Positions 1,347 to 56,618 of a stretch of 64,000 bases of DNA are shown here, piece by piece. The translations under genes were made by a program, and so were the position numbers. Under the pieces are notes generated by a model. It did not search any database. It was not told where the DNA came from and saw only the letters and a list, made by a program, of their open reading frames with translations. This stretch comes from Niveispirillum cyanobacteriorum (GTDB lineage Bacteria; Pseudomonadota; Alphaproteobacteria; Azospirillales; Azospirillaceae), in NCBI RefSeq assembly GCF_002868735.1, contig NZ_CP025613.1, positions 806,001 to 870,000 on the forward strand, read 5' to 3'. The first letter of the stretch is position 1, and each line of letters begins with the position of its first letter.

Positions 1347-2210
1347 ATGCGGCTTCAGGTTGCGGACGGGACAACGGGAAATCCGTCGCGTCTATGGGCC
1401 ATCAGCGATCTGCATCTGTCCATGTCCGCCAACCGGGCCGGGATCGAGGCTTTGCCCGACCATGGTGAGGATTGGCTGATCCTGGCCGGCGACGTGGCGG
1501 AGAAGCCGGACGATCTGGCCTGGGCCTTCGAACTCCTGTCCCGCTGCTTCGCCCGCCTGATCTGGGTTCCCGGCAATCACGAACTCTGGACGATCAAGGG
1601 ACCGGACGGCGCGGTTCTGGCGGGAGAGGCCAAGTATCGGGCCATGGTGGATGTGGCCCGCACGCACGGTGTCGTCACACCGGAGGACCCCTATCCCGTC
1701 TGGGAAGGGGTCGGCGGGCCGGTGCTGCTGGCCCCGATTTTCTTAGGTTTCGACTACTCGTTCCGACCGCCGGAGATAAAGCTGGAAACCGTGCTGGAAT
1801 GGGCATGGGAAAAGCGGCTGCGCAGTGCCGATGAGACGCGCCTGTTGCCCACCCCCTATCCGACGCGCCAGGACTGGTGCGCCGCGCGCGTCGCCTGGAC
1901 ACAGGCCCGGCTGGAACGGGAGGTGCCGGCGGGCATGCGAACCGTGCTGATCAACCATTATCCGCTGCGCCAGGATCTGGTGACCCTGCGCCGCATCCCG
2001 CGCTTCAGCCCCTGGTGCGGGACCGTTGCGACCGAGAATTGGCACCAGCGTTTCAACGCGCTGGCCTGCATCCACGGCCATCTGCACGTTCCCGCCACCC
2101 ACTGGCGCGACGGCGTGCGGTTCGAGGAAGTGTCCCTGGGCTATCCACGGCAATGGCAGCCCCATGGCCGCGGGCCCGACCGGGCCCTGCGGCTGGTTCT
2201 GCCTTTATAA
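1347..2210 (+). CDS. Calcineurin-like metallophosphoesterase
   Basis: This 287-residue protein belongs to the binuclear metallophosphoesterase superfamily. All family motifs are present in order: SDLHLS (D-x-H) near residue 22, AGDVAE (GD) near 48, PGNHEL (GNHE) near 78, a metal-binding His in NHYPL near 200, and GHLHVP (GH-x-H) near 240. It has no signal peptide, so it should be cytoplasmic. The substrate cannot be read from sequence. I chose the ATG at 1347 because homology begins there; the open frame upstream encodes nothing family-like. Its TAA stop overlaps the TAA stop of the convergent RTX gene within one TTATAA (2205-2210). Confidence 0.85.
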   Translation: MRLQVADGTTGNPSRLWAISDLHLSMSANRAGIEALPDHGEDWLILAGDVAEKPDDLAWAFELLSRCFARLIWVPGNHELWTIKGPDGAVLAGEAKYRAMVDVARTHGVVTPEDPYPVWEGVGGPVLLAPIFLGFDYSFRPPEIKLETVLEWAWEKRLRSADETRLLPTPYPTRQDWCAARVAWTQARLEREVPAGMRTVLINHYPLRQDLVTLRRIPRFSPWCGTVATENWHQRFNALACIHGHLHVPATHWRDGVRFEEVSLGYPRQWQPHGRGPDRALRLVLPL

Positions 2211-6266: not shown

Positions 6267-6324
6267 GTCTTGCTTCCGTTCGGGGAGACATCAGTGAGCG
6301 GATGAGGAGGGGAATTGCCCGTCC

Positions 6325-39985: not shown

Positions 39986-40693
39986 TTACGGCGGACTGTC
40001 CAATGCGAACAGCAGAACCAAGCCGGCAGTGTCGGCATCACCACCGGCCTGGCGCAGGTCAAGCGACCGACAGGCCGGTGCCATGGGGGCGGCGACGGCG
40101 CTGTTGACGAAACGGGAGAATACGTCGTCGGTCATCTCCCGATTGCCCCCAAGGAAGGCCGCACCCCGCACCTTGCCGTTCGCGGGGTCGAAATAGATGC
40201 CCACCTCAGCGCGGAAACTGCCGGCCCCGCGCGGCAGCGGCGGGGGTTCCCAGCAATCCATAATCTGGCTGCGCAGCAACGGCCCGGCCCTGCCCGACAG
40301 GTCATCGATCTTGGCCCAGTTGACGGGCGGTGCCGGCGCCTCTGCGATGGTGGTTTCGCCCTGCTGATGGCTGGGCGGCGGGGCCGGCAACCGGCTGGAC
40401 ATGGCCGGCTGCTTGGCCTTGGGCGGTGGCGCCGCCTCCTTCTGCACCTTCGGGGTCAGCGCCTCGATCCGGAGTCGCGCCAGGGCGGAGAAGCGGCCCG
40501 CCGGATAGGCATGGAGATAGGCATAATACTCGGCAGGATCCTTGGAATCCCGCACGCTCTCCCAGAAGACCAGTTCCGGGTCCGCAGGGCGCACGGGTGC
40601 CGCCGGGGTTTGCACAACCGGTGGCGGACTACCGCAGGCTGCCAATGCCAGAAGACCGGTCAGCGCGATGCAATGACGAAGGGCGATGGCCAA
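39986..40693 (-). CDS. Lipoprotein with a sporulation/caspase-associated-type repeat
   Basis: This 235-residue protein has a lipoprotein signal with lipobox LAAC near residue 20 (ALTGLLALAACGSPPP). Next comes a short repeat common in alphaproteobacterial proteins (FWESVRDSKDPAEYYAYLHA followed by YPAGRFSALARLRIEAL), a Pro/Ala-rich linker, and a C-terminal domain reminiscent of TonB/TolA C-termini (RAEVGIYFDPANGKVRGAAF). It is probably anchored in a membrane, facing the periplasm. No role can be assigned. Confidence 0.68.
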   Translation of the reverse strand: MAIALRHCIALTGLLALAACGSPPPVVQTPAAPVRPADPELVFWESVRDSKDPAEYYAYLHAYPAGRFSALARLRIEALTPKVQKEAAPPPKAKQPAMSSRLPAPPPSHQQGETTIAEAPAPPVNWAKIDDLSGRAGPLLRSQIMDCWEPPPLPRGAGSFRAEVGIYFDPANGKVRGAAFLGGNREMTDDVFSRFVNSAVAAPMAPACRSLDLRQAGGDADTAGLVLLFALDSPP

Positions 40694-40871: not shown

Positions 40872-41831
40872 ATGAAACGCGCACGCAAGCGGGTATTGGT
40901 GGCTGGTGGTGCCGGTTTCCTGGGTTCACACCTGTGCGAACGACTGCTGAATGACGGACACGAGGTGCTGTGCGTCGATAATTTCTTCACCGGCTCGCGG
41001 GAGAATATCCGGCACCTGATCCCAAACCCCTATTTTGAGGTGATGCGCCACGACGTCACCTTCCCGCTCTTTGTAGAGGTGGATGAGATCTACAATCTCG
41101 CCTGCCCCGCATCGCCCATCCATTATCAGTTCAACCCAGTGCAGACGACGAAGACCTCTGTCCATGGGGCCATCAACATGCTGGGACTGGCCAAGCGAAC
41201 CAAGGCCAAAATATTCCAGGCCAGCACGTCGGAGGTTTACGGCGACCCGACAGTGCACCCGCAGACCGAGGATTATCGCGGCAACGTGAACCCAATCGGG
41301 CCCCGCGCCTGCTATGACGAGGGAAAGCGCTGCGCGGAAACCCTGTTCTTCGACTATCATCGCCAGAATGGCGTCAATATCCGCGTGGCCCGCATCTTCA
41401 ACACCTATGGCCCACGCATGCACCCCAATGACGGGCGCGTGGTGTCGAACTTCATCGTGCAGGCCCTGCAGGGCAATCCGATCACCATCTATGGCGAGGG
41501 CACCCAGACCCGGTCGTTCTGCTATGTCGATGATCTGATCGAGGGTTTCATCCGTCTGATGGCCGCCCCGGATGAGGTGACCGGCCCCATCAATATCGGC
41601 AATCCCGGCGAATACACGATCCGTCAGCTGGCGGAGAATGTAGTGCGGTTAACGGGCGCCAAATCGGAGTTCGTCTGGAAACCCCTGCCGCAGGACGACC
41701 CGCTGCAGCGCTGCCCCGACATCACCAAGGCCAAAACCCTCCTAAACTGGCAGCCGACCATCCATCTGGAGGAAGGCTTGACGCGCACCATCGCCTATTT
41801 CGCCGATCAACTGGGCGTGTCCCTGGCCTGA
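40872..41831 (+). CDS. UDP-glucuronate decarboxylase (UDP-xylose synthase)
   Basis: This 319-residue short-chain dehydrogenase/reductase-type enzyme converts UDP-glucuronate to UDP-xylose with bound NAD. It has the Rossmann motif [11 protein letters not shown], the family stretch [13 protein letters not shown], the substrate region [20 protein letters not shown], catalytic Ser/Thr in STSEVYG and YDEGK (Tyr-x3-Lys), followed by [21 protein letters not shown] good site, AAGGAT, precedes the ATG. It heads a rightward cluster with two OGT-like glycosyltransferases, 33 bp upstream of the first, and could supply their sugar donor or a capsule pathway. Confidence 0.88.
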
Positions 41832-41864
41832 TCATCCGTCCCGTCAACTGACGCGTTGCAAGCC

Positions 41865-43829
41865 ATGGATATCTACGAGCTGTTTGCCCTCGCCCACGCC
41901 ACCGAAGCGGAGCATGGCAAGGGAGCCGCCATCCGTGCCTATCAGGACTGGCTGGCGGCCAATGAAGGGCACCCTGCCATACATGCGGCCTGGTTCAATC
42001 TCGGCTCACTGCAATTGAGCAGCGATGACGGCAATGGCGCGCTCTATTCCTTTAATGAGGCGGTGCGTGTGCGGCCGGATTTCACGCCCGCCGTCATATC
42101 GCTGGGGTCCGCCCTGGAACGGGTGGGCCAGATCGATATGGCCATCCAATATTGGGGCCATGCCGTCGGCAACCTGTCGGGCGTTTCTTCCGACACGATC
42201 AATTACAAATTGACAGTGTTGAAGCAGCTGGCCCGCGTGCGGATGAGCCGGCAGGAAATGTCCGAGGCGGAGGAGGTGCTGCGCCTGTCACTGGATGTGG
42301 CGCCGGCACGGCGGGAGGAAATGCAGCACTGGGCCAATGTCCGTCAACGGCAATGCAAATGGCCGGTGCTGCAATCTTTCGGCCCCGTGACACCGGAAAA
42401 GATCATGGCCACGCTGGCCCCTCTGACCCTGGCCTATTTCACAGACGATCCCATACTCAGCCTTGCCAATGCCTACTCGCACAATCGGTTGGATGTGGGG
42501 TGGCCCGATGAGTTCAAGACCAGCGCCGATTTCGCCCATCGTCGCCGCGCGCCCGACGGGCGCCTGCGTATCGGGTATCTCTCGTCCGACCTGCGCAACC
42601 ATGCCATCGGCCACCTGACGGCGGAAATGTTCGGGCTTCATGACCGCTCCCGTGTCGAGGTGACGGCATTCTATTGCGGCGTGCGCATCGAGGATGCAGT
42701 GATGCATCGCATCCGGGGCAGTGTCGATCACTGGCACGATATTACGGGCCTGGATGATGCCGCCGCCGCAGCCCTGGTGGAAGAGTGCGGGATCGACATC
42801 CTGGTCGATATCAATGGCAATACGCGGGATGCCCGCACACGGATGCTGGGCCGCCGCCCCGCCCCGGTCATCGTCAACTGGCTGGGCTATCCCGGCACAA
42901 TGGCCAGCCCCTATCACCACTATATCATCGCCGATCAGGTGATCATTCCGCCCGGATCAGAGAAATATTACAGCGAGAAAGTGGAACGGGTCCCCTGCTA
43001 CCAGCCTAATGACCGCTACCGGGTCATCTCGCCGGAACCGCAGTCGCGCGCCCAGCACGGATTGCCGGAACAGGGCGTGGTCTTCTGCTGTTTCAATGGC
43101 CAGCAGAAGATGACCCGTTTCAATATGGCCCGCTGGCTGGACATCCTGAGGCAGGTCGACGGTTCCGTGCTCTGGCTGCTGCGCGGCGGAGATGAAGGTG
43201 ATAACCGCCTGCGGGAAGAAGCGGCCAAGGCCGGTATCGACCCTGCCCGTCTGATCTTCGCCCCCTATGCCGCCAATGCCGATCATCTGGCGCGCTATGT
43301 CCTGGCCGACCTGTTCCTGGACAGCAGCCCCTATGGCGCGCATACGACGGCGTCGGATGCGCTGTGGATGGGGGTGCCCGTCCTGACTCTGCCCGGTCGG
43401 GGCTTCGCATCCCGTGTCTGCGCCTCACTGGTGACGGCTGCCGGCACGCCGGAATTCGTGTGTGACAGCCCGGCAGCCTATGTGGAGATGGCCGTGCGGT
43501 TGGGACGTGACCCGGCAACCCTGGCCGCTGCCCGGCAGAAGCTTCTGGACCTGCGCCACACGTCCGTTCTGTTCAACACCAATGGTTTCGCCCGTGCGAT
43601 GGAGGATGCCTTCGACCGCATGTGGGCGGAGTGGGAGGCCGGTGCCCTGCCCGTCCCCGATCTGACCAATTTGGACCTCTATCTGGAAATCGGCAGCGCC
43701 ATGGACCATGATGCCGAGGAATTCGGCTTCCTGCCGGATTACGAAGAACGGTATCGCAAGGCCCTGGCCAAGCGGCACGCCCTGACACGGGTTCCGCGCG
43801 ATGTCAGACTGTGGACGCAGCCGGCATGA
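41865..43829 (+). CDS. TPR-containing O-GlcNAc-transferase-like (SPINDLY-type) glycosyltransferase
   Basis: This cytosolic protein of about 654 residues belongs to the GT41 group, which attaches sugars to Ser/Thr of proteins. Residues 1-150 form TPR-like helices (AAWFNLGSLQLSSDDGNGAL; EAVRVRPDFTPAVISLGSAL). The catalytic half begins with RIGYLSSDLRNHAIGHLTAE, matching the OGT His region. It continues with NWLGYPGTMAS, VVFCCFNGQQKMTRFN with the UDP-binding Lys, and LFLDSSPYGAHTTASDALWM, which keeps the HTT donor-binding motif. A TTG three codons earlier (41856) is a weaker start. It overlaps the next OGT-like gene by 4 nt. The protein target is unknown; the adjacent Thr-rich repeat protein is a candidate. 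Confidence 0.87.
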   Translation: MDIYELFALAHATEAEHGKGAAIRAYQDWLAANEGHPAIHAAWFNLGSLQLSSDDGNGALYSFNEAVRVRPDFTPAVISLGSALERVGQIDMAIQYWGHAVGNLSGVSSDTINYKLTVLKQLARVRMSRQEMSEAEEVLRLSLDVAPARREEMQHWANVRQRQCKWPVLQSFGPVTPEKIMATLAPLTLAYFTDDPILSLANAYSHNRLDVGWPDEFKTSADFAHRRRAPDGRLRIGYLSSDLRNHAIGHLTAEMFGLHDRSRVEVTAFYCGVRIEDAVMHRIRGSVDHWHDITGLDDAAAAALVEECGIDILVDINGNTRDARTRMLGRRPAPVIVNWLGYPGTMASPYHHYIIADQVIIPPGSEKYYSEKVERVPCYQPNDRYRVISPEPQSRAQHGLPEQGVVFCCFNGQQKMTRFNMARWLDILRQVDGSVLWLLRGGDEGDNRLREEAAKAGIDPARLIFAPYAANADHLARYVLADLFLDSSPYGAHTTASDALWMGVPVLTLPGRGFASRVCASLVTAAGTPEFVCDSPAAYVEMAVRLGRDPATLAAARQKLLDLRHTSVLFNTNGFARAMEDAFDRMWAEWEAGALPVPDLTNLDLYLEIGSAMDHDAEEFGFLPDYEERYRKALAKRHALTRVPRDVRLWTQPA

Positions 43830-45682
43830 CGGCACCCTCAGCTGTCGATCTCCTGATCGCCGATCTGCGGGGTGCGCCGCCGGGCCTGTCACCGGTTGAT
43901 CCGGCAACGCGCAGCCGCTGGCGTCATCTGTTGTCGGGCTTGCCGGCGATTGAGGCGATGGCCGCTGTTGCGCAGGCTGACCCCATGCCCAACCGGCATT
44001 GGGCCGCCGACATGCTGCATGAATGGCTCGTTTCACCAGGAAATGGCGGTGTCGACAGCGCGCCCATCTGGTTCAATCTCGGCGTCGAACTGGCCGCACG
44101 GGGGGATTCCGGCTCGGCAGCAACCGCTTACACCAACGCCCTTCTGTTGCAGCCGTCCTTGTGGCAGGCCACCATTAACCTTGCGGGCATCCGCGAGGCG
44201 GCGGGCGATACGCAAACAGCCCTGGCGACGATTAACACCGCGTTGCAGGATGACGAAGCGCGAACCAAGCTGCTGAACCAGCGGGGCCGGCTGCTGGAGA
44301 AGCTGTCCCGCCTGGATGAGGCGGAAACGACTTATTATCGCAGCCTGCTGACTAAACCCGATCAGCATTATGTGGTCCAGCATTGGGCCTTCGTCCGGCA
44401 GAACATGTGCGCCTGGCCTCTGTTTGGACCGGGCATACCTGGCTTGACGGTTGAACAGCTGCGCGACCAGTGCGGCGGGCTTGCCACGCTGGCATTGGCC
44501 GACAATGTGGCCGAACAGCGGCGGACGGTGCAATCCTGGCTGGACCGCCGACCGGTGCCCGTGACGCAGCCCTTGGCACCTGCCACCGGCTATGCCCATC
44601 GCCGGCTGCGTATCGGCTATATGTCGTCGGATTTCTGCCGCCATGCCATGACTTTCCTGGTGGCCGAACTGTTGGAACGGCACGACCGTGACCGGTTCGA
44701 GATCTATGGTTATTGCTCCAGCCCGGATGATGGCAGCGACATGCGGGCTCGCGTGCTGGCGGCCCTGGATCATTGCCGCCTTGTCCGCGACAAGGATCAT
44801 GAAACGGTCGCCCGCCAGATCCGGGCCGATGAGATCGATATCCTGATCGACCTCAACGGTATTACTGTGGGCGAACGGCTGGACGTGCTGCGCTGGAAAC
44901 CGGCGCCAGTACAGATGACCTATCTCGGCTTCATCGGACCGGTACCGATCCCAGAGCTGGATTACATTCTGACCGACGAATATGCGATTCCGCCTTCCAT
45001 CGCGGATCAATATTGGCCCCGACCGCTCTATCTCCCCGGCGTCTATCAGGCCAATGATGGCCGGCCCGTGCCGATGGCCGATATCAGCCGTGCGGATGAA
45101 GGACTGCCGCAGGACCGGTTCATCTTCTGCTGCTTCTGCGGCTCCTACAAGATATCCGAAGCCATGTTCGCCCTGTGGATGCGCATCCTGGCCCGCACAC
45201 GCGACAGCGTCCTCTGGCTGCTGGAGGATAATCGCTGGGTGGTGGGCAATCTGCGGGCACAGGCGGTACGGCACGGGATCGATCCCGACCGGCTGATCTT
45301 CTCCCCCCGTGCCATGCCCGACCGTTACCGCGCCCGCATGGCGCTGGCCGACCTGTTCCTGGATACGACCCCTTATAATGCCGGCACTGTGGCCAGCGAC
45401 GCGCTGCGTGCTGGCCTGCCGATCCTGACCCTGTCACGGGAAACCTTCGCCAGCCGGATGGCTGGCGCCCTGTTGCGGGCCATGGACCTGCCGGAACTCA
45501 TCACCACTAAAGATGATGATTACGTCGACCGGGCCGTGGCACTGTACAACACACCGGACCTTTACCGGGCGATCCGCAGCCGGACCACGCCCGAACACTG
45601 GCAGGCCACCTTGGGCGACACGCATACATTCACGCGCGGATTTGAGGCGACGCTGGACCGCGTCGCCATCCGCGCGGACTGA
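43826..45682 (+). CDS. Second TPR/OGT-like glycosyltransferase, divergent donor site
   Basis: This protein of about 618 residues is a paralogue of the preceding gene and overlaps its stop (ATGA). TPR-like helices (PIWFNLGVELAARGDSGSAA) are followed by a catalytic half starting RIGYMSSDFCRHAMTFLVAE. Compared with the first copy, WLGYPGT has become YLGFIGP and GAHTTASDALW has become NAGTVASDALR, so the His and first Thr of the donor motif are lost. The Lys in FCCFCGSYKIS remains. It may use another donor, need a partner, or be inactive. A GTG at 43811 is an alternative start. It converges on the secretion genes with no gap. Confidence 0.83.
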   Translation: MTAPSAVDLLIADLRGAPPGLSPVDPATRSRWRHLLSGLPAIEAMAAVAQADPMPNRHWAADMLHEWLVSPGNGGVDSAPIWFNLGVELAARGDSGSAATAYTNALLLQPSLWQATINLAGIREAAGDTQTALATINTALQDDEARTKLLNQRGRLLEKLSRLDEAETTYYRSLLTKPDQHYVVQHWAFVRQNMCAWPLFGPGIPGLTVEQLRDQCGGLATLALADNVAEQRRTVQSWLDRRPVPVTQPLAPATGYAHRRLRIGYMSSDFCRHAMTFLVAELLERHDRDRFEIYGYCSSPDDGSDMRARVLAALDHCRLVRDKDHETVARQIRADEIDILIDLNGITVGERLDVLRWKPAPVQMTYLGFIGPVPIPELDYILTDEYAIPPSIADQYWPRPLYLPGVYQANDGRPVPMADISRADEGLPQDRFIFCCFCGSYKISEAMFALWMRILARTRDSVLWLLEDNRWVVGNLRAQAVRHGIDPDRLIFSPRAMPDRYRARMALADLFLDTTPYNAGTVASDALRAGLPILTLSRETFASRMAGALLRAMDLPELITTKDDDYVDRAVALYNTPDLYRAIRSRTTPEHWQATLGDTHTFTRGFEATLDRVAIRAD

Positions 45683-47128
45683 TCAGGGTTCGTTCAGGGA
45701 CTCGTCCAGGCCGCGCAGCACGGGATAAAGGAAATAGGACATCAGGCTGCGACTGCCGACCTTGATTTCGGCTTGCACCACCATGCCCGCCGTCAGAACC
45801 GCACCCTGCGGCATGCGCTCCAGCGTCAGGCTGTCAAGATCGACCTGCGCCGTATGCACATAGGCACCGGCAACCGTCGGCGTGCGCAGCGCGTCCAGCG
45901 GCTCCGCTGTACCCGGCACAAAGCTCTGCCGGGAGACTGACCGCAGCCGACCCTTCAACATGCCATGGCGCTGGAACGGGAACGGTGCAACCTTCACCTC
46001 AACCGGATCACCCGCCTTAACATAGCCGATGTCACCGGACTGGATCACCACTTCGGCGATCAGCGGCGTATCCAGCGCCACCAGGGTGATCAGCGCTTCG
46101 GCTTCCCGGGCGATGGAACCGGGCGACAGGCGGGCCACCTCCTGCACAACGGCGTCGGCGGGCGCCGTCATCTCGACCAGATCGTTGCGACGGACGGCCT
46201 TAGCCAGATCCTCATCGACCTGGGAGGCCTGACGGCGGGTTTCCACAAGCTGTTCTAGAAGCTGGCGCTGCCAGTCATCCACGAAATTCCGCCGCTCCGC
46301 CCGCTTTGCGGCCAGATCGGCCTGCAATTCCTTGATACGATTGGTGGTACCCTGAAGCGAGCGCTCAGTCTCCAGACGCTGGGCCTGCGCCTCCAGAAGC
46401 TGCAGCCGCGACCCCGTCTGCGCCTTGAAAAGCTGGGAGCGCAGATTCTCCACATCGCGATAGACCACCATCTGGGCCGTCAGCGACTTTTCATCATCCT
46501 GAGCGGCCCGCAGCGAGGCATCAAGACTGACAATGCCGCTATCCAGACTGTCCAGATGCGACCGGTATTGGGTCTGGCGCTGCTGGAACAGCCGGGCCTG
46601 CAACGCCATGTCCGGATCGTCACTACTGGCCATTGTCTCGGGCAAGGTCTTACCCGCAGCCTCCGCCTCCAACCGCCGCAACTGCGCGAACAAGGCGCGC
46701 TGCTGCGCCGACAGGGCACTGCGGTCGGCTAGCGTGAAGGTCGGGTCCAACGTGGCGAGCAGCTGTCCCTTGGTCACACGTTCACCGGGCTGGACCAGGA
46801 GCTGGCGCACGATGGAACGTTCCAGCGGCTGCATCACGATGGGCGGTACCTGCGTGGCCAGGCGGCCTGTGGACACCACGACACGGTCCATCTGAACGAA
46901 GCACGCAATGATGGCCATCAGTGCCAGCATCCCCGCCGCAATCAGGTGGGGCGCCCCCAGAATGGGTGGCGGCGGTTCGCGGACGATCATCTCCAGTTCC
47001 GACTGGAACTCGATGGCTTCAGGAGCCACGTGCAGGCGCGGGGCCGGCGTCCCGTAGAACCGCCGCCAGCGCTCACGCAGCGCCTGGAAGGGCCGCATCA
47101 ATGGATGTGCTGTGTCTGGGTTTGCCAT
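45683..47128 (-). CDS. Type I secretion periplasmic adaptor (HlyD family)
   Basis: This 481-residue protein bridges an inner-membrane ABC exporter to a TolC-like channel. It has a cytoplasmic N-terminus and one membrane helix near residues 60-80 (HLIAAGMLALMAIIACFVQM). A lipoyl half-motif comes next (VVSTGRLATQVPPIVMQPLE; VKPG-like LLVQPGERVTKGQLLATLD), then a long coiled coil at about 130-310. The second lipoyl half is MTAPADAVVQEVA, followed by a C-terminal beta-barrel (AGDPVEVKVAPFPFQRHGML). It overlaps the exporter gene by 31 nt. No TolC gene is present in the window. Confidence 0.9.
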   Translation of the reverse strand: MANPDTAHPLMRPFQALRERWRRFYGTPAPRLHVAPEAIEFQSELEMIVREPPPPILGAPHLIAAGMLALMAIIACFVQMDRVVVSTGRLATQVPPIVMQPLERSIVRQLLVQPGERVTKGQLLATLDPTFTLADRSALSAQQRALFAQLRRLEAEAAGKTLPETMASSDDPDMALQARLFQQRQTQYRSHLDSLDSGIVSLDASLRAAQDDEKSLTAQMVVYRDVENLRSQLFKAQTGSRLQLLEAQAQRLETERSLQGTTNRIKELQADLAAKRAERRNFVDDWQRQLLEQLVETRRQASQVDEDLAKAVRRNDLVEMTAPADAVVQEVARLSPGSIAREAEALITLVALDTPLIAEVVIQSGDIGYVKAGDPVEVKVAPFPFQRHGMLKGRLRSVSRQSFVPGTAEPLDALRTPTVAGAYVHTAQVDLDSLTLERMPQGAVLTAGMVVQAEIKVGSRSLMSYFLYPVLRGLDESLNEP

Positions 47129-49227
47129 AGGTGCCGATAAATGTCGCAGCGTTGCAGCAGGATGGAGTGGGGGGCGCAGTCAACCAACTTGCCCTGTTCC
47201 AGAACAATGATCTTGTCAGCCTTAACCAAGGACGACAGCCGGTGCGAGACGATGATCATGGTACGTCCCTCGGCGATGCGCGTCAGGTTACGCTGAACAA
47301 TGGCCTCGCTGTCCGGGTCAAGCGCGCTGGTCGCCTCATCAAAGATCAGAAGACGCGGCTGTGTCACCAGGGCACGGGCGATAGCGATACGCTGGCGCTG
47401 GCCGCCGGAGAAGTTGGAAGCATTCTCCTCGACCATCGTGTCATAGGACAAAGGCAGGCGGTCGATGAATTCGTCAGCGCCCGCCATCTGGGCCGCCTGA
47501 AGGATTTCATGGAGCGGCGCGTCGGGACGCGCAGCCGCGATATTCTCACGGATGGTGCCGCGGAACAGCAGATTGTCCTGCAGCACGACGCCGATGGACT
47601 TGCGCAGATGGTTCAGTTCGATATGGCGCAGATCGACACCATTCAGCTTGATCAGACCTTCTTGCGGGATGTGGATGGACTGGATCAGTCGGGTGATCGT
47701 GGTCTTGCCTGACCCCGACCGACCGACGATACCGACAACCTGCCCCTCCTCGATATCGAAGGACACGCGGTCAAGCGCCGGAGTGGCACCGGGAGCATAA
47801 CGGAAGGTCACATCCTCGAAGAACATCTTGCCCGTGATATATGGACGGGACTGACGGGAATGACCACTGCGCTCCGGCTCGGCATTCATCACCTCGCCCA
47901 GCATACGCACCGACAGATCCGCCTCCTGGTACTCGTTGATCAAGGCCACGATCTGAAGCAGCGGGCCTGTGACGCGACCCGACAGCATGTTGAAGGCGAT
48001 CAGCGCGCCCAGTGTCATGGCGCCGTCGAAGACCTGAACGGCACCGATGGCAAGCACGCTGATCTGCATCAGCTTTTCCAGACCGCCGGTCAGCACGGTC
48101 CCCAGGATGCTGATGCCGCCAACCTTGGCATGGCGCCGGACGGCCAGGGCCACTTTACTGTCCCATGCCTGCTGCCGGTTCTCTTCAAGCACCAGTGACT
48201 TGACGGCGCGCATGGAATGCAGTGTCTCGACCAGATGCGCCTGACGGCTGGCCTCAGTCTCGTACAACCGTCCCAGATGCAGCCGGAAGATCGGCACCAT
48301 GAAGCCGATGATCGCCGCGATGACGACCGAGAAGGCCAGCACCACAGCAGTCAACAGGCCGCTGTAAAGGAACAGCAGCACCAGCAGCACCGGCAATGTG
48401 ACAGTATCCAGGAAAACCTGAAACAGCCTGCCGGTCAGGAAATGGCGCAGCTTCTCCGTCTGCTGCATATGCCGGGTCAGGATACCCGCACTGTTGCGCT
48501 CGAAGAAATGCAGCGGCAGCGAAAGAAGGTGCCGGAAAGTGCGGCTGGTCAGCTTGGCATCGATCTTGTTCGATGCCAGCAACATAAGATTCTGGCGGAC
48601 ATAGCCGAAGAACCCGTCAAAGACTGTCAGCAATATATAAAGCAGGACGATGACGAACAGCGTCTGGTAACTATGGTGGGTAATCACCTTGTCGACCAGC
48701 ACCTGGAACATCATCGGCAGCGCCAAGCCGATCAGATTGGCCATGATGGCCGCGATGGCGACGCCACGGAAGAATTTAGCGTTGCGCAGGATCTCCGGCA
48801 GGAACCAGCGGAAGCCGAAGGGCTGGTTCTCATCCATCAGGGCCCAGGCACGCTTGGCCAGGATGATCTCGCCCGTCCAGGTGGAGGTGAATTCCTCCTC
48901 GGACAGAAACCGGACGCCCTCAGCCTCACGCGTGGGGTCCAGTACGGCAGCCGACATCCGGCCCTCCACCTCCATCGCATAGGCAAGAATGACCCAGCTG
49001 CCATCCTTCCGGATCGCAATTGCCGGGTAAGCACTGCCTAGGTGACAGGCGGACTTCCAGCTGACGCGTGTCTTACGGCCCTTAAGGCCGGCGCCATGCA
49101 TGGATTTCAGTACGGCCGGTACGGGATCGCCCGGCACATCGGGCGGCAACTCATCCGGATGAAGTTGCACGCCATGGTGCAGCGCCACCAGAAAAAGACA
49201 CCTCAGAACCGTCATGTAAGGGGACAA
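47098..49227 (-). CDS. Type I secretion ABC exporter (HlyB-like, degenerate C39 domain)
   Basis: This protein of about 709 residues exports unfolded proteins. The N-terminal 130 residues form a C39-like domain (VLRCLFLVALHHGVQLHPDE) in which the catalytic Cys position appears to be Thr, so it should bind and not cleave cargo. The membrane domain spans about 155-440. The ATPase has Walker A GRSGSGKTT, signature NFSGGQRQRIAIARAL, Walker B LLIFDEATSALD and the switch His in IVSHRL. The start is uncertain: TTG at 49227 or ATG at 49215. It is divergent from the octapeptide-repeat protein, which is its most obvious cargo by position. Confidence 0.9.
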   Translation of the reverse strand: MSPYMTVLRCLFLVALHHGVQLHPDELPPDVPGDPVPAVLKSMHGAGLKGRKTRVSWKSACHLGSAYPAIAIRKDGSWVILAYAMEVEGRMSAAVLDPTREAEGVRFLSEEEFTSTWTGEIILAKRAWALMDENQPFGFRWFLPEILRNAKFFRGVAIAAIMANLIGLALPMMFQVLVDKVITHHSYQTLFVIVLLYILLTVFDGFFGYVRQNLMLLASNKIDAKLTSRTFRHLLSLPLHFFERNSAGILTRHMQQTEKLRHFLTGRLFQVFLDTVTLPVLLVLLFLYSGLLTAVVLAFSVVIAAIIGFMVPIFRLHLGRLYETEASRQAHLVETLHSMRAVKSLVLEENRQQAWDSKVALAVRRHAKVGGISILGTVLTGGLEKLMQISVLAIGAVQVFDGAMTLGALIAFNMLSGRVTGPLLQIVALINEYQEADLSVRMLGEVMNAEPERSGHSRQSRPYITGKMFFEDVTFRYAPGATPALDRVSFDIEEGQVVGIVGRSGSGKTTITRLIQSIHIPQEGLIKLNGVDLRHIELNHLRKSIGVVLQDNLLFRGTIRENIAAARPDAPLHEILQAAQMAGADEFIDRLPLSYDTMVEENASNFSGGQRQRIAIARALVTQPRLLIFDEATSALDPDSEAIVQRNLTRIAEGRTMIIVSHRLSSLVKADKIIVLEQGKLVDCAPHSILLQRCDIYRHLWQTQTQHIH

Positions 49228-49700
49228 TCGCCACGTCCATCGGCAGGAAAGGGGGTCAACGTGAGCCGGAAACTAAAGCGATTCTCGAAAACACACGACA
49301 AAAAAGCGACATGCCCGCTCCCGAAGGGTGCAATTGATCCATGATCTAGGCCCTAAGGCATAAACGATCTGAAATACCTCAGACGCAACACAGGTCGCGG
49401 CGCGTTTCGTGGGGGGTACACCGAATGTAACTTGACTCCTCCTCACGATGGGTATTCTATCCACACTGACCCAAAAAATTTGGGCGCCTATACCAAAAGG
49501 GGATTGAACACGGCCATGCGGCTGCGCCTTTTTGTGCGTGTCCGCGGTTGGGTACCTTTCCGGTTGTCGGCTCCAGATTGCGTGGGCTTCGGTTAATTCG
49601 GCATATGTCTTGCATGACAATTTCGGATTAATCGAGAAGGAGATCTTCCAGGCAGGGAAGGTTTCCGTAGATCCACTTTTCATGCTCTGGAGTCCTAGCC
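49228..49700. promoter_or_regulatory. 473-bp divergent promoter region, exporter / repeat protein
   Basis: No gene is apparent. A possible promoter for the rightward gene is TTGACT (49432-49437) with TATTCT (49453-49458); the 15-bp spacer is short. A small palindrome CCCAAA-AAA-TTTGGG sits at 49470-49484, just downstream, and could be an operator. That leaves a leader of about 220 nt before the repeat-protein ATG, unusually long. GGAG lies 9 nt before that ATG. Confidence 0.4.
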
Positions 49701-52700
49701 ATGTCGATCCTCTCGTTTCTCTCGACTACTCAGATCGGCCAGCTGAGCACGACAGCAATCGGCAACTGGACGACTTCAGACCTTCGTCAACTCTCGTCAA
49801 CACAGACCAGTGCGCTGTCGACCACCCAAATCGGGGCTCTGACAACGACGCAGATGGCGGGGCTGCTCACAACGCAGCTCTCGGGACTTGCAACGACAAC
49901 CGTTGCCGCGCTGACCAGCACCCAGCTGAATGCAATCTCGACGACCAACCTGACGGGTTTGAGCACGACGCAGTTCACTGCGCTCACCACAACTCAGGTT
50001 TCCGGCCTCAGCACCACGCTGGTTCGCAGCCTCAACAGCACCTACATCGCCAATCTCTCGACGACGCAGATCGGCGGATTGAGCACCACCCAGATCACCA
50101 CGCTGAGCACCGCCCAGGTGCAGTCGCTGGAAACCACCGACGTCGCGGCTCTGTCCACAACCCAGATCGTGGCGCTGACCACGGCCCAGATCGTGGCTCT
50201 GGCTAGCACGCAGTTTGCGGCCATTGAGACCACCGATCTGGCGGCCCTGACCACGACCCAGTTCCGGGTGCTGACCACCACTCAGATCGCCGGGCTGTCG
50301 ACCACCCAGGTCGGTGTCCTGACGACGACCCAGATCGCCTCGCTGACCACCACCCAGGTGCGTGGCATCGAGACCACCGATCTCGCCGCCCTCTCCACCA
50401 CCCAGATCGGCGGCCTGACCGCCGCCCAGATCACGGCCCTGACCACCACCCAGGTCGGCGGGTTCGAGACCACTGATCTCGCGGTGTTGAGCAGCACCCA
50501 GCTGAATGCCCTGTCGAGCGCACAGGTCGGCAGCCTGACCACGACCCAGGTCAATGCCCTGTCCTCCACCCAGATCGGTCAGCTGGGCACCGCCCAGGTC
50601 CGTGGCCTCAACAGCACCCAGGTGGCGTCTCTCTCCACCACCCAGATCGGCGGATTGAGCACCACCCAGATCGCGTCGCTGACCAGCACCCAGATCAGCG
50701 GGCTGGAAACCACGGACATCGCGGCCCTGTCCACGACCCAGATCGTGGCGCTGACCACGGCCCAGATCGTGTCTCTGACCACGACACAGTTCGCGGCTAT
50801 TGAGGTCACCGATCTGGCGACCCTGACCACGACCCAGTTCCGTGCCCTCACGACGACCCAGATCGCTGGGCTGAACACCACCCAGGTCGGTGTCCTGACG
50901 ACGACCCAGATCGCCTCGCTGACCACCACCCAGGTGCGTGGCATCGAGACCACCGATCTCGCCGCCCTCTCCACCACCCAGATCGGCGGCCTGACCGCCG
51001 CCCAGATCACGGCCCTGACCACCACCCAGGTCGGCGGGTTCGAGACCACTGATCTCGCGGTGTTGAGCAGCACCCAGCTGAATGCCCTGTCGAGCGCACA
51101 GGTCGGCAGCCTGACCACGACCCAGGTCAATGCCCTGTCCTCCACCCAGATCGGTCAGCTGGGCACCGCCCAGGTCCGTGGCCTCAACAGCACCCAGGTG
51201 GCGTCTCTCTCCACCACCCAGATCGGTGGCCTCTCCACCACTCAGATCGCGTCGCTGACCACCACCCAGATCAGCGGGCTGGAAACCACGGACATCGCGA
51301 CCCTGTCCACGACCCAGATCGTGGCCCTGACCACGGCCCAGATCGTGTCTCTGAATAGCACGCAGTTCGCGGCCATTGAGACCACCGATCTGGCGGCCCT
51401 GACCACGACCCAGTTCCGTGCCCTCACGACGACCCAGATCGCTGGCCTGAACACCACCCAGGTCGGTGTCCTGACGACGACCCAGATCGCCTCGCTGACC
51501 ACCACCCAGGTGCGTGGCATCGAGACCACCGATCTCGCCGCCCTCTCCACCACCCAGATCGGCGGCCTGACCGCCGCCCAGATCACGGCCCTGACCACCA
51601 CCCAGGTCGGCGGGTTCGAAACCACTGATCTCGCGGTGTTGAGCAGCACCCAGCTGAATGCCCTGTCGAGCGCACAGGTCGGCAGCCTCACCACGACCCA
51701 GGTCAATGCCCTGTCCTCCACCCAGATCGGTCAGCTGGGCACCGCCCAGGTCCGTGGCCTCAACAGCACCCAGGTGGCGTCTCTTTCCACCACCCAGATC
51801 GGTGGCCTCTCCACGACCCAGATCGCGTCGCTGACCACCACCCAGATCAGCGGGCTGGAAACCACGGACATCGCGACCCTGTCCACGACCCAGATCGTGG
51901 CGCTGACCACGGCCCAGATCGTGTCTCTGAACAGCACGCAGTTTGCGGCTATCGAGACCACCGATCTGGCGGCCCTGACCACGACCCAGTTCCGTGCCCT
52001 GACAACGACCCAGATCGCCGGGCTGAACACCACCCAGGTCGGTGTCCTGACGACGACCCAGATCGCCTCGCTGACCACCACCCAGGTGCGTGGCATCGAG
52101 ACCACCGATCTGGCCGCCCTCTCCACCACCCAGATCGGCGGCCTGACCGCCGCCCAGATCACGGCCCTGACCACCACCCAGGTCGGCGGGTTCGAGACCA
52201 CTGATCTGGCGGTGTTGAGCAGCACCCAGCTGAATGCCCTGTCGAGCGCACAGGTCGGCAGCCTGACCACGACCCAGGTCAATGCCCTGTCCTCCACCCA
52301 GATCGGTCAGCTGGGCACCGCCCAGGTCCGTGGCCTCAACAGCACCCAGGTGGCGTCTCTCTCCACCACCCAGATCGGTGGCCTCTCCACCACCCAGATC
52401 GCGTCGCTGACCACCACCCAGATCAGCGGGCTGGAAACCACGGACATCGCGACCCTGTCCACGACCCAGATCGTGGCCCTGACCACGGCCCAGATCGTGT
52501 CTCTGAACAGCACGCAGTTCGCGGCTATCGAGACCACCGATCTGGCGGCCCTGACCACGACCCAGTTCCGTGCCCTCACGACGACCCAGATCGCCGGGCT
52601 GAACACCACCCAGGTCGGTGTCCTGACGACGACCCAGATCGCCTCGCTGACCACCACCCAGGTGCGTGGCATCGAGACCACCGATCTCGCCGCCCTCTCC

Positions 52701-55613
52701 ACCACCCAGATCGGCGGCCTGACCGCCGCCCAGATCACGGCCCTGACCACCACCCAGGTCGGCGGGTTCGAGACCACTGATCTCGCGGTGTTGAGCAGCA
52801 CCCAGCTGAATGCCCTGTCGAGCGCACAGGTCGGCAGCCTGACCACGACCCAGGTCAATGCCCTGTCCTCCACCCAAATCGGTCAGCTGGGCACCGCCCA
52901 GGTCCGTGGCCTCAACAGCACCCAGGTGGCGTCTCTTTCCACCACCCAGATCGGCGGATTGAGCACCACCCAGATCGCGTCGCTGACCAGCACCCAGATC
53001 AGCGGGCTGGAAACCACGGACATCGCGGCCCTGTCCACGACCCAGATCGTGGCCCTGACCACGGCCCAGATCGTGTCTCTGAACAGCACGCAGTTCGCGG
53101 CCATTGAGACCACCGATCTGGCGGCCCTGACCACGACCCAGTTCCGTGCCCTCACGACCACCCAGATCGCCGGGCTGAACACCACCCAGGTCGGTGTCCT
53201 GACGACGACCCAGATCGCCTCGCTGACCACCACCCAGGTGCGTGGTATCGAGACCACCGATCTCGCCGCCCTCTCCACCACCCAGATCGGCGGCCTGACC
53301 GCCGCCCAGATCACGGCCCTGACCACCACTCAGGTCGGCGGGTTCGAGACCACTGATCTGGCGGTGTTGAGCAGCACCCAGCTGAATGCCCTGTCGAGCG
53401 CACAGGTCGGCAGCCTGACCACGACCCAGGTCAATGCCCTGTCCTCCACCCAGATCGGTCAGCTGGGCACCGCCCAGGTCCGTGGCCTCAACAGCACCCA
53501 GGTGGCGTCTCTCTCCACCACCCAGATCGGTGGCCTCTCCACGACCCAGATCGCGTCGCTGACCAGCACCCAGATCAGCGGGCTGGAAACCACGGACATC
53601 GCGGCCCTGTCCACGACCCAGATCGTGGCCCTGACCACGGCCCAGATCGTGTCTCTGGCCAGCACGCAGTTCGCGGCCATTGAGACCACTGATCTGGCGG
53701 CCCTGACCACGACCCAGTTCCGTGCCCTCACGACCACCCAGATCGCTGGCCTGAACACCACCCAGGTCGGTGTCCTGACGACGACCCAGATCGCCTCGCT
53801 GACCACCACCCAGGTGCGTGGCATCGAGACCACCGATCTGGCCGCCCTCTCCACCACCCAGATCGGCGGCCTGACCGCCGCCCAGATCACGGCCCTGACC
53901 ACCACCCAGGTCGGCGGGTTCGAGACCACTGATCTCGCGGTGTTGAGCAGCACCCAGCTGAATGCCCTGTCGAGCGCACAGGTCGGCAGCCTGACCACGA
54001 CCCAGGTCAATGCCCTGTCCTCCACCCAAATCGGTCAGCTGGGCACCGCCCAGGTCCGTGGCCTCAACAGCACCCAGGTGGCGTCTCTCTCCACCACCCA
54101 GATCGGTGGCCTCTCCACCACCCAGATCGCGTCGCTGACCAGCACCCAGATCAGCGGGCTGGAAACCACGGACATCGCGGCCCTGTCCACGACCCAGATC
54201 GTGGCCCTGACCACGGCCCAGATCGTGTCTCTGGCTAGCACGCAGTTCGCGGCCATTGAGACCACCGATCTGGCGGCCCTGACCACGACCCAGTTCCGTG
54301 CCCTGACAACGACCCAGATCGCCGGGCTGAACACCACCCAGGTCGGTGTCCTGACGACGACCCAGATCGCCTCGCTGACCACCACCCAGGTGCGTGGCAT
54401 CGAGACCACCGATCTGGCCGCCCTCTCCACCACCCAGATCGGCGCTCTGACCACTACCCAGATTGTGGCCCTGACTACGACACAGGTCGGCGGGTTCGAG
54501 ACCACTGATCTGGCGGTGTTGAGCAGCACCCAGCTGAATGTCCTGTCGAGCGCACAGGTCGGCAGCCTGACCACGACCCAGGTCAATGCCCTGTCCTCCA
54601 CCCAGATCGGTCAGCTGGGCACCGCCCAGGTCCGTGGCCTCAACAGCACCCAGGTGGCGTCTCTCTCCACCACCCAGATCGGTGGCCTCTCCACGACCCA
54701 GATCGCGTCGCTGACCACCACCCAGATCAGCGGACTGGAAACCACGGACATCGAGGCCCTGTCCACGACCCAGATCGTGGCCCTGACCACGACACAGATC
54801 GTGGCTCTGGCCAGCACGCAGTTCGCGGCCATTGAGACCACCGATCTGGCGGCCCTGACCACGACCCAGTTCCGTGCCCTCACGACGACCCAGATCGCTG
54901 GCCTGAACACCACCCAGGTCGGTGTCCTGACGACGACCCAGATCGCCTCGCTGACCACCACCCAGGTGCGTGGCATCGAGACCACCGATCTGGCCGCCCT
55001 CTCCACCACCCAAATCGGCGGCTTGACAACCACCCAGATTGCGGCCCTGACCACGACACAGGTGGTTGGTATGGAAGGAACTGACATCGCAGTACTGACC
55101 AGCACGCAGCTTACGGGGCTGACAGCCACTCTGGTTCAGAGCTTGACGACGACCCAGGTCGCCGCCTTCACCTACACCCAGGTCGGCCAGTTCAGCACAA
55201 CCCAGATCCGGGCGCTGGAAACCAGCGACATCGCGGTTCTGGGAACGGCACAGGCCACCATTCTGAACAGCACGCAGCTGGCGGCGTTGACCACAACCCA
55301 GGTCGCCAACTTCAGCACCACGGCAGTAGCTCAGCTGACGGGTGGCGGACAGTTCCCGGTCTTCACCTCCACCTTCGTGTCGGGTTTGACCACAACGCAA
55401 CTGGGTGTGTTGAGCTCGGCGCAGATCAGTGCCTTCACGACCACTAGTATCGTGGGGCTGAGCACGACGCAGATTTCGTCGCTGTCCACCACCCAGGTCG
55501 GTGGTCTGGAGACGACGGATATCGCGGCGATGAACACCACGCAGATCGCTGGTTTCACCTCCACGCAGGTGTCGTCGATGACCTCCGCTCAAATCAACGC
55601 CTTGTTCATGTAA
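49701..55613 (+). CDS. Giant Thr/Ser-rich octapeptide-repeat protein, probable type I secreted surface protein
   Basis: This 1970-residue protein is built almost wholly from 8-residue units of consensus [ST]TTQ[IV]xxL, roughly 240 in all. Every few units the Gln becomes Asp and the first residue Glu (ETTDLAAL). Hydrophobic positions 5 and 8 are kept throughout, as in a solenoid. There is no Sec signal, RTX nonapeptide, enzymatic domain or transmembrane segment. Units run from residue 7 (LSTTQIGQL) to the C-terminus (TTQIAGFTSTQVSSMTSAQI). Nine blocks of 24 units repeat exactly every 192 residues. The divergent type I exporter and nearby OGT-like enzymes suggest secretion and O-glycosylation. 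An adhesive or matrix function is inferred, and whether the fold is beta-solenoid or short-helix is open. Confidence 0.8.
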   Translation: MSILSFLSTTQIGQLSTTAIGNWTTSDLRQLSSTQTSALSTTQIGALTTTQMAGLLTTQLSGLATTTVAALTSTQLNAISTTNLTGLSTTQFTALTTTQVSGLSTTLVRSLNSTYIANLSTTQIGGLSTTQITTLSTAQVQSLETTDVAALSTTQIVALTTAQIVALASTQFAAIETTDLAALTTTQFRVLTTTQIAGLSTTQVGVLTTTQIASLTTTQVRGIETTDLAALSTTQIGGLTAAQITALTTTQVGGFETTDLAVLSSTQLNALSSAQVGSLTTTQVNALSSTQIGQLGTAQVRGLNSTQVASLSTTQIGGLSTTQIASLTSTQISGLETTDIAALSTTQIVALTTAQIVSLTTTQFAAIEVTDLATLTTTQFRALTTTQIAGLNTTQVGVLTTTQIASLTTTQVRGIETTDLAALSTTQIGGLTAAQITALTTTQVGGFETTDLAVLSSTQLNALSSAQVGSLTTTQVNALSSTQIGQLGTAQVRGLNSTQVASLSTTQIGGLSTTQIASLTTTQISGLETTDIATLSTTQIVALTTAQIVSLNSTQFAAIETTDLAALTTTQFRALTTTQIAGLNTTQVGVLTTTQIASLTTTQVRGIETTDLAALSTTQIGGLTAAQITALTTTQVGGFETTDLAVLSSTQLNALSSAQVGSLTTTQVNALSSTQIGQLGTAQVRGLNSTQVASLSTTQIGGLSTTQIASLTTTQISGLETTDIATLSTTQIVALTTAQIVSLNSTQFAAIETTDLAALTTTQFRALTTTQIAGLNTTQVGVLTTTQIASLTTTQVRGIETTDLAALSTTQIGGLTAAQITALTTTQVGGFETTDLAVLSSTQLNALSSAQVGSLTTTQVNALSSTQIGQLGTAQVRGLNSTQVASLSTTQIGGLSTTQIASLTTTQISGLETTDIATLSTTQIVALTTAQIVSLNSTQFAAIETTDLAALTTTQFRALTTTQIAGLNTTQVGVLTTTQIASLTTTQVRGIETTDLAALSTTQIGGLTAAQITALTTTQVGGFETTDLAVLSSTQLNALSSAQVGSLTTTQVNALSSTQIGQLGTAQVRGLNSTQVASLSTTQIGGLSTTQIASLTSTQISGLETTDIAALSTTQIVALTTAQIVSLNSTQFAAIETTDLAALTTTQFRALTTTQIAGLNTTQVGVLTTTQIASLTTTQVRGIETTDLAALSTTQIGGLTAAQITALTTTQVGGFETTDLAVLSSTQLNALSSAQVGSLTTTQVNALSSTQIGQLGTAQVRGLNSTQVASLSTTQIGGLSTTQIASLTSTQISGLETTDIAALSTTQIVALTTAQIVSLASTQFAAIETTDLAALTTTQFRALTTTQIAGLNTTQVGVLTTTQIASLTTTQVRGIETTDLAALSTTQIGGLTAAQITALTTTQVGGFETTDLAVLSSTQLNALSSAQVGSLTTTQVNALSSTQIGQLGTAQVRGLNSTQVASLSTTQIGGLSTTQIASLTSTQISGLETTDIAALSTTQIVALTTAQIVSLASTQFAAIETTDLAALTTTQFRALTTTQIAGLNTTQVGVLTTTQIASLTTTQVRGIETTDLAALSTTQIGALTTTQIVALTTTQVGGFETTDLAVLSSTQLNVLSSAQVGSLTTTQVNALSSTQIGQLGTAQVRGLNSTQVASLSTTQIGGLSTTQIASLTTTQISGLETTDIEALSTTQIVALTTTQIVALASTQFAAIETTDLAALTTTQFRALTTTQIAGLNTTQVGVLTTTQIASLTTTQVRGIETTDLAALSTTQIGGLTTTQIAALTTTQVVGMEGTDIAVLTSTQLTGLTATLVQSLTTTQVAAFTYTQVGQFSTTQIRALETSDIAVLGTAQATILNSTQLAALTTTQVANFSTTAVAQLTGGGQFPVFTSTFVSGLTTTQLGVLSSAQISAFTTTSIVGLSTTQISSLSTTQVGGLETTDIAAMNTTQIAGFTSTQVSSMTSAQINALFM
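50004..55187 (+). repeat. Nine 576-bp tandem super-repeats made of 24-bp units
   Basis: A landmark beginning CAGCTGGGCACC falls at 50580 and then every 576 bp through 54612 without a single indel; its degenerate equivalent is at 55188. Each block is 24 octapeptide codon sets. Asp-bearing units sit at fixed slots 5, 9, 15 and 19 counted from the NSTQV unit. Central copies are nearly identical, while the first half of copy one and the end of copy nine have drifted. Confidence 0.93.
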
Positions 55614-55760: not shown

Positions 55761-56213
55761 ATGCATCATCGCCAGATTCTCGACATGGCCCTGCGGGAGC
55801 TGCCTGCCGCCAAGGCGGCCTATCTTTCCCGTGTGGCTGATAACCTGTCCCGCGATCCGACGCTGGATGAGCGGTCACACCTGCTCTATCCCGTGTTGGC
55901 TGCAGCCGCAGCCGGCATCGAACCTGTGCTGCCGCCGCCCGAATGCGCTACCTTGATCGTCGCCTTCCTGACCAGCCATGCGGACGGCATCGCACACGCG
56001 CTCTACTCCCCCGCTTATCTGCGCGACGGGGCGGCGGCGATGGCGCCCTGGGCCGCACGGCTGCAGGCCGGGATTTCCACAGCCATCATGGACCAGTTGC
56101 AACGCGGCACCCTGGTTCTGGATGAACCTAAGGTATGGCGCTTCAGCAGTAGCATGGGCGAGCAGCCCCGCTTCCCCTATGGGGAGGAGCCGGAGGAAGA
56201 GGATCAGGATTGA
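55761..56213 (+). CDS. Small hypothetical protein with acidic tail
   Basis: I do not recognise this protein of about 150 residues. It reads as soluble and helical (LRELPAAKAAYLSRVADNLS; PPPECATLIVAFLTSHADGI) and ends in an acidic tail (GEEPEEEDQD). No ribosome-binding site is clear at 55761; an internal ATG at 55785 is possible. It lies between the repeat-protein terminator and the sigma-54 activator, with no visible functional link. Confidence 0.5.
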   Translation: MHHRQILDMALRELPAAKAAYLSRVADNLSRDPTLDERSHLLYPVLAAAAAGIEPVLPPPECATLIVAFLTSHADGIAHALYSPAYLRDGAAAMAPWAARLQAGISTAIMDQLQRGTLVLDEPKVWRFSSSMGEQPRFPYGEEPEEEDQD

Positions 56214-56618
56214 TCGGAGAAAGTCCGGCACGGCGACCGGGGCGGGCCGCCGTGCCGACAAGGTACCGCATCTTTGCCCTGAACCGAAAAGTGGGCCCGG
56301 CGGCGGGGCTGCCGGTAAGGCGGCGCAGTGGAAACGATCCAACCGGATCATCTCGCCCTGCGGCGTCGGCATAACCATCCGGGCTGTGGCCCTTGACGGC
56401 TAACGATTGTGGCGATTTCTTTCATCGCCTCTAAATCCGGTATCAGCACAGCAAATCACGGGCCAGTTGCCTGAAACCGGCTGTTTCCCTGGACGCCGAA
56501 CATGGAAACACCCCCGTATGTCCTGTCTGGAAACACTATCCATTGCCTTTTGCAATCACCTTCTATCATTCAGCAAGACGTCCTTGCTGAACGCAACGCC
56601 CCATGCAATCATCCTTCC
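56214..56618. other. 405-bp gap with no gene
   Basis: Open frames here read as non-coding. It must contain the promoter of the sigma-54 activator gene, but I could not fix -35/-10 or -24/-12 elements. Confidence 0.4.

Follow-up and report, generated by a model that had tools for sequence, protein, structure and literature searches.

An OGT-like glycosyltransferase paired with a giant ALTTAQ repeat protein: a candidate glycoprotein pathway in Niveispirillum cyanobacteriorum

A cassette of six genes from Niveispirillum cyanobacteriorum probably encodes a dedicated glycoprotein pathway. In the reading that we favour (probability of about 0.6), the glycosyltransferase OGT1 would modify the threonine at position 4 (Thr4) of the eight-residue repeats (octads) of a giant ALTTAQ protein, and the adjacent type I exporter would secrete the product. 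The gene pairing suggests an undescribed route in which a protein is coated with sugar inside the cell and then exported, at least in the groups where the exporter is linked. The cassette lies in a stretch of 64,000 nucleotides (the window). All six genes listed in the initial annotation (a UDP-xylose synthase, two OGT-like enzymes, an exporter with its adaptor and a 1970-aa protein) were recovered. Features are listed below by position in the window.

39986..40693, minus strand: conserved 235-aa predicted lipoprotein (lipobox-like LAAC), cassette membership uncertain
40872..41831, plus strand: UXS, UDP-glucuronate decarboxylase (UDP-xylose synthase), candidate donor-sugar enzyme; human UXS1 is the best PDB relative
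41856..43829, plus strand: OGT1, TPR and GT41 glycosyltransferase (PF13844, 2.6e-82), proposed modifier of Thr at octad position 4
43811..45682, plus strand: OGT2, second TPR and GT41 glycosyltransferase (PF13844, 1.4e-67)
45683..47128, minus strand: HlyD-type adaptor (membrane fusion protein) for type I export (HlyD_3, 7.1e-11)
47098..49227, minus strand: HlyB-type ABC exporter with an N-terminal C39-like (peptidase-like) domain (ABC_membrane, ABC_tran)
49701..55613, plus strand: giant ALTTAQ octapeptide-repeat protein, 1970 aa (PF20080, 83 stretches), proposed substrate of glycosylation and export
55419..55613, plus strand: last 64 residues of the ALTTAQ protein (ending in AQINALFM), candidate secretion signal from conservation
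55761..56213, plus strand: 150-aa orphan, conserved in sequence and in position behind the repeat gene, cassette membership uncertain

Human UDP-glucuronate decarboxylase (UXS1) was the top solved relative of the product of 40872-41831 (E-value 2.2e-128, against 6e-40 for the next epimerase class), which places this enzyme closest to the UDP-glucuronate decarboxylases. The UXS sequences share 93-99 % identity across the cassettes of related genomes. Both OGT1 and OGT2 belong to GT41, as a two-part catalytic domain and TPR repeats were detected in each with Pfam (PF13844 Glyco_transf_41 and TPR), and human OGT was their best solved relative (9e-85 and 4e-73, respectively). Their genes overlap by 19 bases, and an alternative start of OGT1 is possible at the ATG at 41865. 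The GT41 nucleotide-binding residues (His, Lys and HTT/Asp) are present in OGT1, where H249, K418, H496-T497 and D501 are invariant across 17 orthologs and align with the motifs of human OGT. In OGT2 the His and Lys are kept, but AGTVASD replaces the GHTTxxD of OGT. The two enzymes form separate, well-supported GT41 clades (support of 99 for the OGT2 clade), and both clades are linked to ALTTAQ genes.

The 1970-aa protein, which is read divergently from the exporter genes, is filled from residue 7 to its end by the octapeptide repeat L-x-T-T-Q-I-x-x (about 245 octads), with approximately eight near-identical superrepeats of 192 aa (24 octads). This repeat is already catalogued in Pfam as the ALTTAQ repeat (PF20080), and the protein scores 1458.7 bits against a curated cut-off of 26.4. 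Its richness in Thr and Ser, pointed out in the initial annotation, was confirmed (501 Thr, 25 %; 192 Ser, 10 %), and Thr is found at position 4 in 205 of the 245 octads. No other domain and no RTX motif was detected with Pfam, and no signal peptide is evident. The protein also matched Gp5_trimer_C, LRR_EndoS and Fibrinogen_BP in Pfam, which we put down to artefacts of repeat composition.

Residues 1-264 were modelled with AlphaFold (AF2) from an alignment of 16 N-terminal stretches of 264 aa (mean pLDDT 94; pTM 0.85). The model is a screw of 33 short helices, one per octad, each starting at octad position 3, so that the predicted N-cap falls on position 2, and position 4 comes second in the helix. 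An LRR or beta-type fold, indicated by weak profile matches, was not supported by this model of short helices. About 200 Thr4 acceptor sites would be arrayed along such a solenoid. When the model was compared with the PDB using Foldseek, only mesothelin and ARM-like proteins were returned, with low TM (about 0.36). The repeat matched PDB 9zem ('HeliScrew4', a solved chain of 120 aa) at 4e-13, and the two have the 8-residue period in common; the 9zem octads are of the LTPEQIAA type, with Pro/Glu where the window repeat has Thr. Among open PMC papers, none on PF20080 ALTTAQ or 9zem HeliScrew4 was found, nor was an assigned function for either. We also observed 35 acidic octads (ETTD) within 49701-55613, at spacings of 4, 6, 4 and 10 octads. 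As all of these spacings are even, alternate octads are suggested to face the same side of the screw.

For the comparison across genomes, 84,980 species genomes were scanned for OGT1 using an alignment of 17 orthologs, and the 80 loci with the closest OGT1 relatives were taken. ALTTAQ genes beside OGT1 were found with a profile made from the window protein and unlinked proteins with the Pfam profile. An ALTTAQ gene was present in 74 of these 80 best loci (within 500 bp in 66; on the same strand in 66). Five of the six loci without one end at contig ends (L107, L110, L114, L116 and L170), and L177 (Magnetococcales) is the sole true exception. The best 80 loci include Niveispirillum, Roseomonas-type Acetobacteraceae, Azospirillum, Nitrospirillum, Magnetospirillum, Telmatospirillum, Caulobacter, Asticcacaulis, Phenylobacterium, Methylosinus, Rhodoplanes and a Desulfovibrio. 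Adjacency of OGT1 and ALTTAQ genes is conserved across the Alphaproteobacteria and, among these 80 loci, is kept although gene order varies and the two genes occur in either relative orientation. Relatives of Niveispirillum have a conserved cassette, and genomes of the Roseomonas group have it in rearranged form.

Presence and absence were also compared in 82 genomes of the family, 24 of which contain ALTTAQ. A full-length OGT1 ortholog (47-100 % identity and E-value ≤ 1e-190, the next GT41s being at about 1e-117) was found in 19 of the 24 ALTTAQ-positive genomes versus none of the 58 negative ones (Fisher test, 2e-14, with kinship of the genomes ignored). Presence of both genes varies inside four genera. 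Three genomes of the same genus as the window lack both, and some but not most genomes of a large genus (g12) have both; this joint presence and absence within genera indicates more than one inheritance event.

These distributions bear on another explanation, in which the GT41 enzymes act on flagellin or other proteins and came to lie beside repeat genes by chance, through descent from one ancestral cluster. A precedent exists in FlmG of Caulobacter crescentus, a cytosolic TPR-containing O-glycosyltransferase that modifies flagellins before their export (PMC7591256). However, the adjacency extends over 74 of the 80 best-locus genomes in varied gene orders and on both relative strands, OGT1 and the repeat gene come and go together within genera, and none of the remaining GT41 genes of the N. 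cyanobacteriorum genome is near an ALTTAQ gene. We regard this explanation as very improbable.

Two of the scanned loci are unusual in composition. In L100 (G282:C1:3725001-3745000), from a different family, one OGT1 gene lies between two giant ALTTAQ genes and is adjoined by UXS. L138, from a bin named 'Candidatus Marinimicrobia', has a cassette type otherwise seen in Alphaproteobacteria, and may be misbinned or reflect horizontal transfer.

Octad positions were scored in the ALTTAQ proteins of OGT1 loci and of loci without OGT1. The mean Thr4 fraction was 0.75 in loci with OGT1 and OGT2 (n = 17) and 0.65 in loci with OGT1 only (n = 51), with a minimum of 0.43, versus 0.19-0.22 in loci without OGT1 (n = 24), where Ala and Asp are found instead. 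All examined ALTTAQ proteins of the OGT1-less genomes G011, G023, G025, G031, G039, G121 and G221 had Thr4 fractions of 0.21 or lower. Intermediate fractions (0.31-0.50) without an adjacent OGT1 occurred only in genomes with OGT1 elsewhere (G032, G036, G077 and G282). In all seven genomes with both kinds of protein, the OGT1-linked protein exceeded every unlinked one, some of the linked copies being contig-end fragments; in N. cyanobacteriorum itself the values were 0.84 and 0.24. No such dependence on OGT1 was seen at octad position 2. The window-protein profile could favour Thr4-rich matches beside OGT1, but profile selection is not the cause of the enrichment because nearly every OGT1 locus has an ALTTAQ match.

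This co-variation makes Thr4 the candidate acceptor. The link between OGT and repeat protein, which had been drawn from gene position alone, now has conserved adjacency, phyletic co-occurrence and Thr4 co-variation behind it. OGT1 would attach a sugar to Thr4 in the cytosol. This reaction is deduced from sequence, as are the identity of the sugar, the order of events, secretion and a place at the cell surface.

The Thr4 difference could instead reflect paralog lineages. The enrichment would then be a lineage or structural trait of one ALTTAQ subfamily, unrelated to sugar, and OGT a chaperone or regulator that does not act on these threonines. The compared proteins do have common ancestry, and internal duplication and homogenisation of repeat proteins lets positional preferences drift. 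Against this, the shift has the same direction in 7/7 genomes with both kinds of protein and across many genera, the non-adjacent intermediates are confined to genomes that have OGT1 elsewhere, and the catalytic residues of OGT1 are conserved. A trait unrelated to sugar is improbable in our judgement.

That all ALTTAQ proteins are OGT1 substrates was ruled out, as a second ALTTAQ gene of the same genome and many in other genera have low Thr4 and no GT41 neighbours. The second gene (C1:369626-374650, L048; about 1690 aa) also has no exporter neighbour. It represents a separate subfamily, and its type is kept in related genomes and in another family (also L051, L082 and L074).

At octad position 3, Ser/Thr fractions were 0.87 and 0.91 with OGT2 versus 0.55 with OGT1 alone. 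The link of OGT2 to this position is weak because OGT2 has a single origin on the OGT1 tree. OGT2, found mainly in the exporter-linked branch, may modify a second position or extend the glycan. A fuller scheme can be drawn in which the two enzymes read adjacent octad positions (OGT1 Thr4 and OGT2 Ser/Thr3), UDP-xylose is the donor, and the product is a hyperglycosylated, mucin-like helical rod with dedicated type I export; taken as a whole, this scheme is quite unlikely.

The ABC protein has E. coli HlyB as its best full-length PDB relative (1.3e-137), and its C39-like domain is a weak match in Pfam. Its gene overlaps the HlyD-type gene by 31 bases, so that a HlyB-type exporter and a HlyD-type adaptor of type I secretion are co-encoded; the two genes adjoin in loci of Niveispirillum and the Roseomonas group. 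No gene for a TolC-type partner occurs in the cassette, and PF02321 proteins (TolC family) are encoded elsewhere in the genome. In the pathway that we propose, the modified protein, which has no Sec signal, would leave the cell through this divergently encoded exporter and a TolC-type protein whose gene lies outside the cassette. The export signal would probably lie in the conserved C-terminal octads. Between the Niveispirillum and Roseomonas-group proteins of the exporter-linked class, the C-terminal 64 residues share 62 % mean identity, compared with 45 % (sd 10) for internal stretches drawn at random in register.

The initial annotation had asked whether the repeat protein, the OGTs and the exporter co-occur in other genomes, and took a lack of the OGT genes or of the exporter in most homologous loci as a refutation. 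For OGT and ALTTAQ the link held, while the exporter failed as a general rule: it is linked in 29 of the 80 best OGT1 loci and not adjacent in 51, and was ruled out as a universal partner. Orthologs of the ABC exporter are present in 25 of the 80 loci. OGT2 is present in 26, and 25 of these have the exporter. Two classes can be distinguished. In class A (Niveispirillum, the Roseomonas group and a few Hyphomicrobiales) the exporter adjoins the ALTTAQ gene, usually together with OGT2. Class B consists of OGT1 and ALTTAQ alone with no adjacent exporter. The exporter adjoins the ALTTAQ gene in several gene orders, and this trait changed at least 5 times along the OGT1 tree. Two more genomes of the family have an adjacent exporter of the same type at 49-50 % identity (G032 in L070 and G036 in L105). 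No close exporter homolog was found in some OGT1-ALTTAQ genomes (G016 and G015). In G001, of the same genus, the exporter is kept (73 % identity; L087, G001:C9:70001-90000) without ALTTAQ, OGT1 or OGT2; its neighbours there are RHS genes, a transposase and other glycosyltransferases.

UXS was likewise part of the locus in a minority (20 of the 80 best OGT1 loci) and absent from most, its state switching about 10 times along the OGT1 tree, and was ruled out as an obligatory partner. It lies directly behind OGT1 in several Caulobacterales and occurred once among 41 control loci that lack OGT1. On these counts, dedicated export would be limited to a subset of loci and xylose is a hypothetical donor. 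The neighbouring UDP-xylose synthase may supply UDP-xylose, which to our knowledge has no precedent as a donor for GT41 enzymes. Methyltransferases near OGT1 (FkbM-type in 12 loci and others in 9, as raw counts) fit what is expected of a glycan island. A family of 763 aa combining an FkbM methyltransferase with TPR was observed downstream of OGT1 in Phenylobacterium/Caulobacter (L146, L156, L171 and L179).

Export through the adjacent exporter would accordingly apply to class A, and it has to be weighed against an intracellular role. OGT1 could modify the repeat protein while the latter serves as an intracellular scaffold or filament and the exporter handles other substrates, such as the RTX-type giants at window 2205-17991. 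The 51 best loci without an adjacent exporter, the lack of a Sec signal and of an RTX motif in the repeat protein, and the presence of these giants about 28 kb away in the same window are consistent with such a role. Yet in Niveispirillum, the Roseomonas group and some Hyphomicrobiales the ALTTAQ gene has an exporter ortholog next to it, arranged in several ways and with repeated changes on the tree, and the C-terminal octads are better conserved than the interior. We consider the intracellular role unlikely, though worth keeping in view. The larger giant is an RTX-type repeat protein of 3888 aa (window 6325-17991, minus strand), and the other, of 1353 aa, combines a long SPPV tract with RTX repeats (window 2205-6266, minus strand); both are possible type I exporter substrates.

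The principle that co-encoded transferases O-glycosylate a repetitive protein in the cytosol and a dedicated exporter then secretes it is already known from serine-rich repeat glycoproteins, which have co-encoded cytosolic glycosyltransferases and a dedicated accessory Sec exporter (PMC6973325). The proposed pathway resembles these systems in its Ser/Thr-rich repetitive protein, co-encoded cytosolic transferases and, in a subset, co-encoded exporter, the Niveispirillum system being known from its genes. The OGT1-ALTTAQ system is set apart by defining features: accessory Sec systems are Gram-positive, their transferases (GtfA/GtfB) are not GT41 and their exporter is of Sec type (SecA2/SecY2), whereas the exporter here is an ABC type I exporter and the transferases are GT41. 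Their repeats are Ser-rich and 10-20 aa long, and ALTTAQ repeats are helical and of 8 aa. It is set apart from FlmG by substrate and exporter. Both have a cytosolic alphaproteobacterial enzyme with a TPR domain for substrate binding and an OGT-like domain, and a modified protein that is exported (by inference in our case); in FlmG the substrate is flagellin, the donor derives from pseudaminic acid and the flagellar apparatus exports the product.

HMW1/HMW1C, AIDA-I/Aah and TibA/TibC are Gram-negative systems in which the product of a neighbouring glycosyltransferase gene acts on an adhesin in the cytosol, ahead of its export. There the sugar is an Asn-linked hexose or a Ser/Thr-linked heptose, secretion is of the two-partner or the autotransporter kind, and the substrates are beta-helical. 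OGT1 has its family and motifs in common with human OGT, bacterial XcOGT and plant SPINDLY, whose donors are GlcNAc or fucose; we know of no genetic pairing of these enzymes with one repeat protein and an exporter, nor of physiological targets for most bacterial OGT-like enzymes. Nothing relevant on octapeptide solenoids or on GT41 with type I secretion was found in open PMC papers, and subscription journals and preprints may differ. If the proposed pathway is correct, a whole clade of OGT-like enzymes gains a substrate of its own, for which the acceptor residue is predicted, a role is assigned to a large unexplained repeat family (ALTTAQ), and Gram-negative bacteria have their own version of the serine-rich-repeat glycoprotein pathway, built from unrelated parts.

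Two conserved genes without Pfam matches flank the cassette. Five related loci have the predicted 235-aa lipoprotein (39986..40693) in the corresponding position, with 56-97 % identity, and in three relatives the 150-aa orphan (55761..56213) likewise follows the repeat gene, with 74-76 % identity. A sigma-54-type response regulator (window 56502-58208, plus strand) comes after the cassette, as it does in three relatives.
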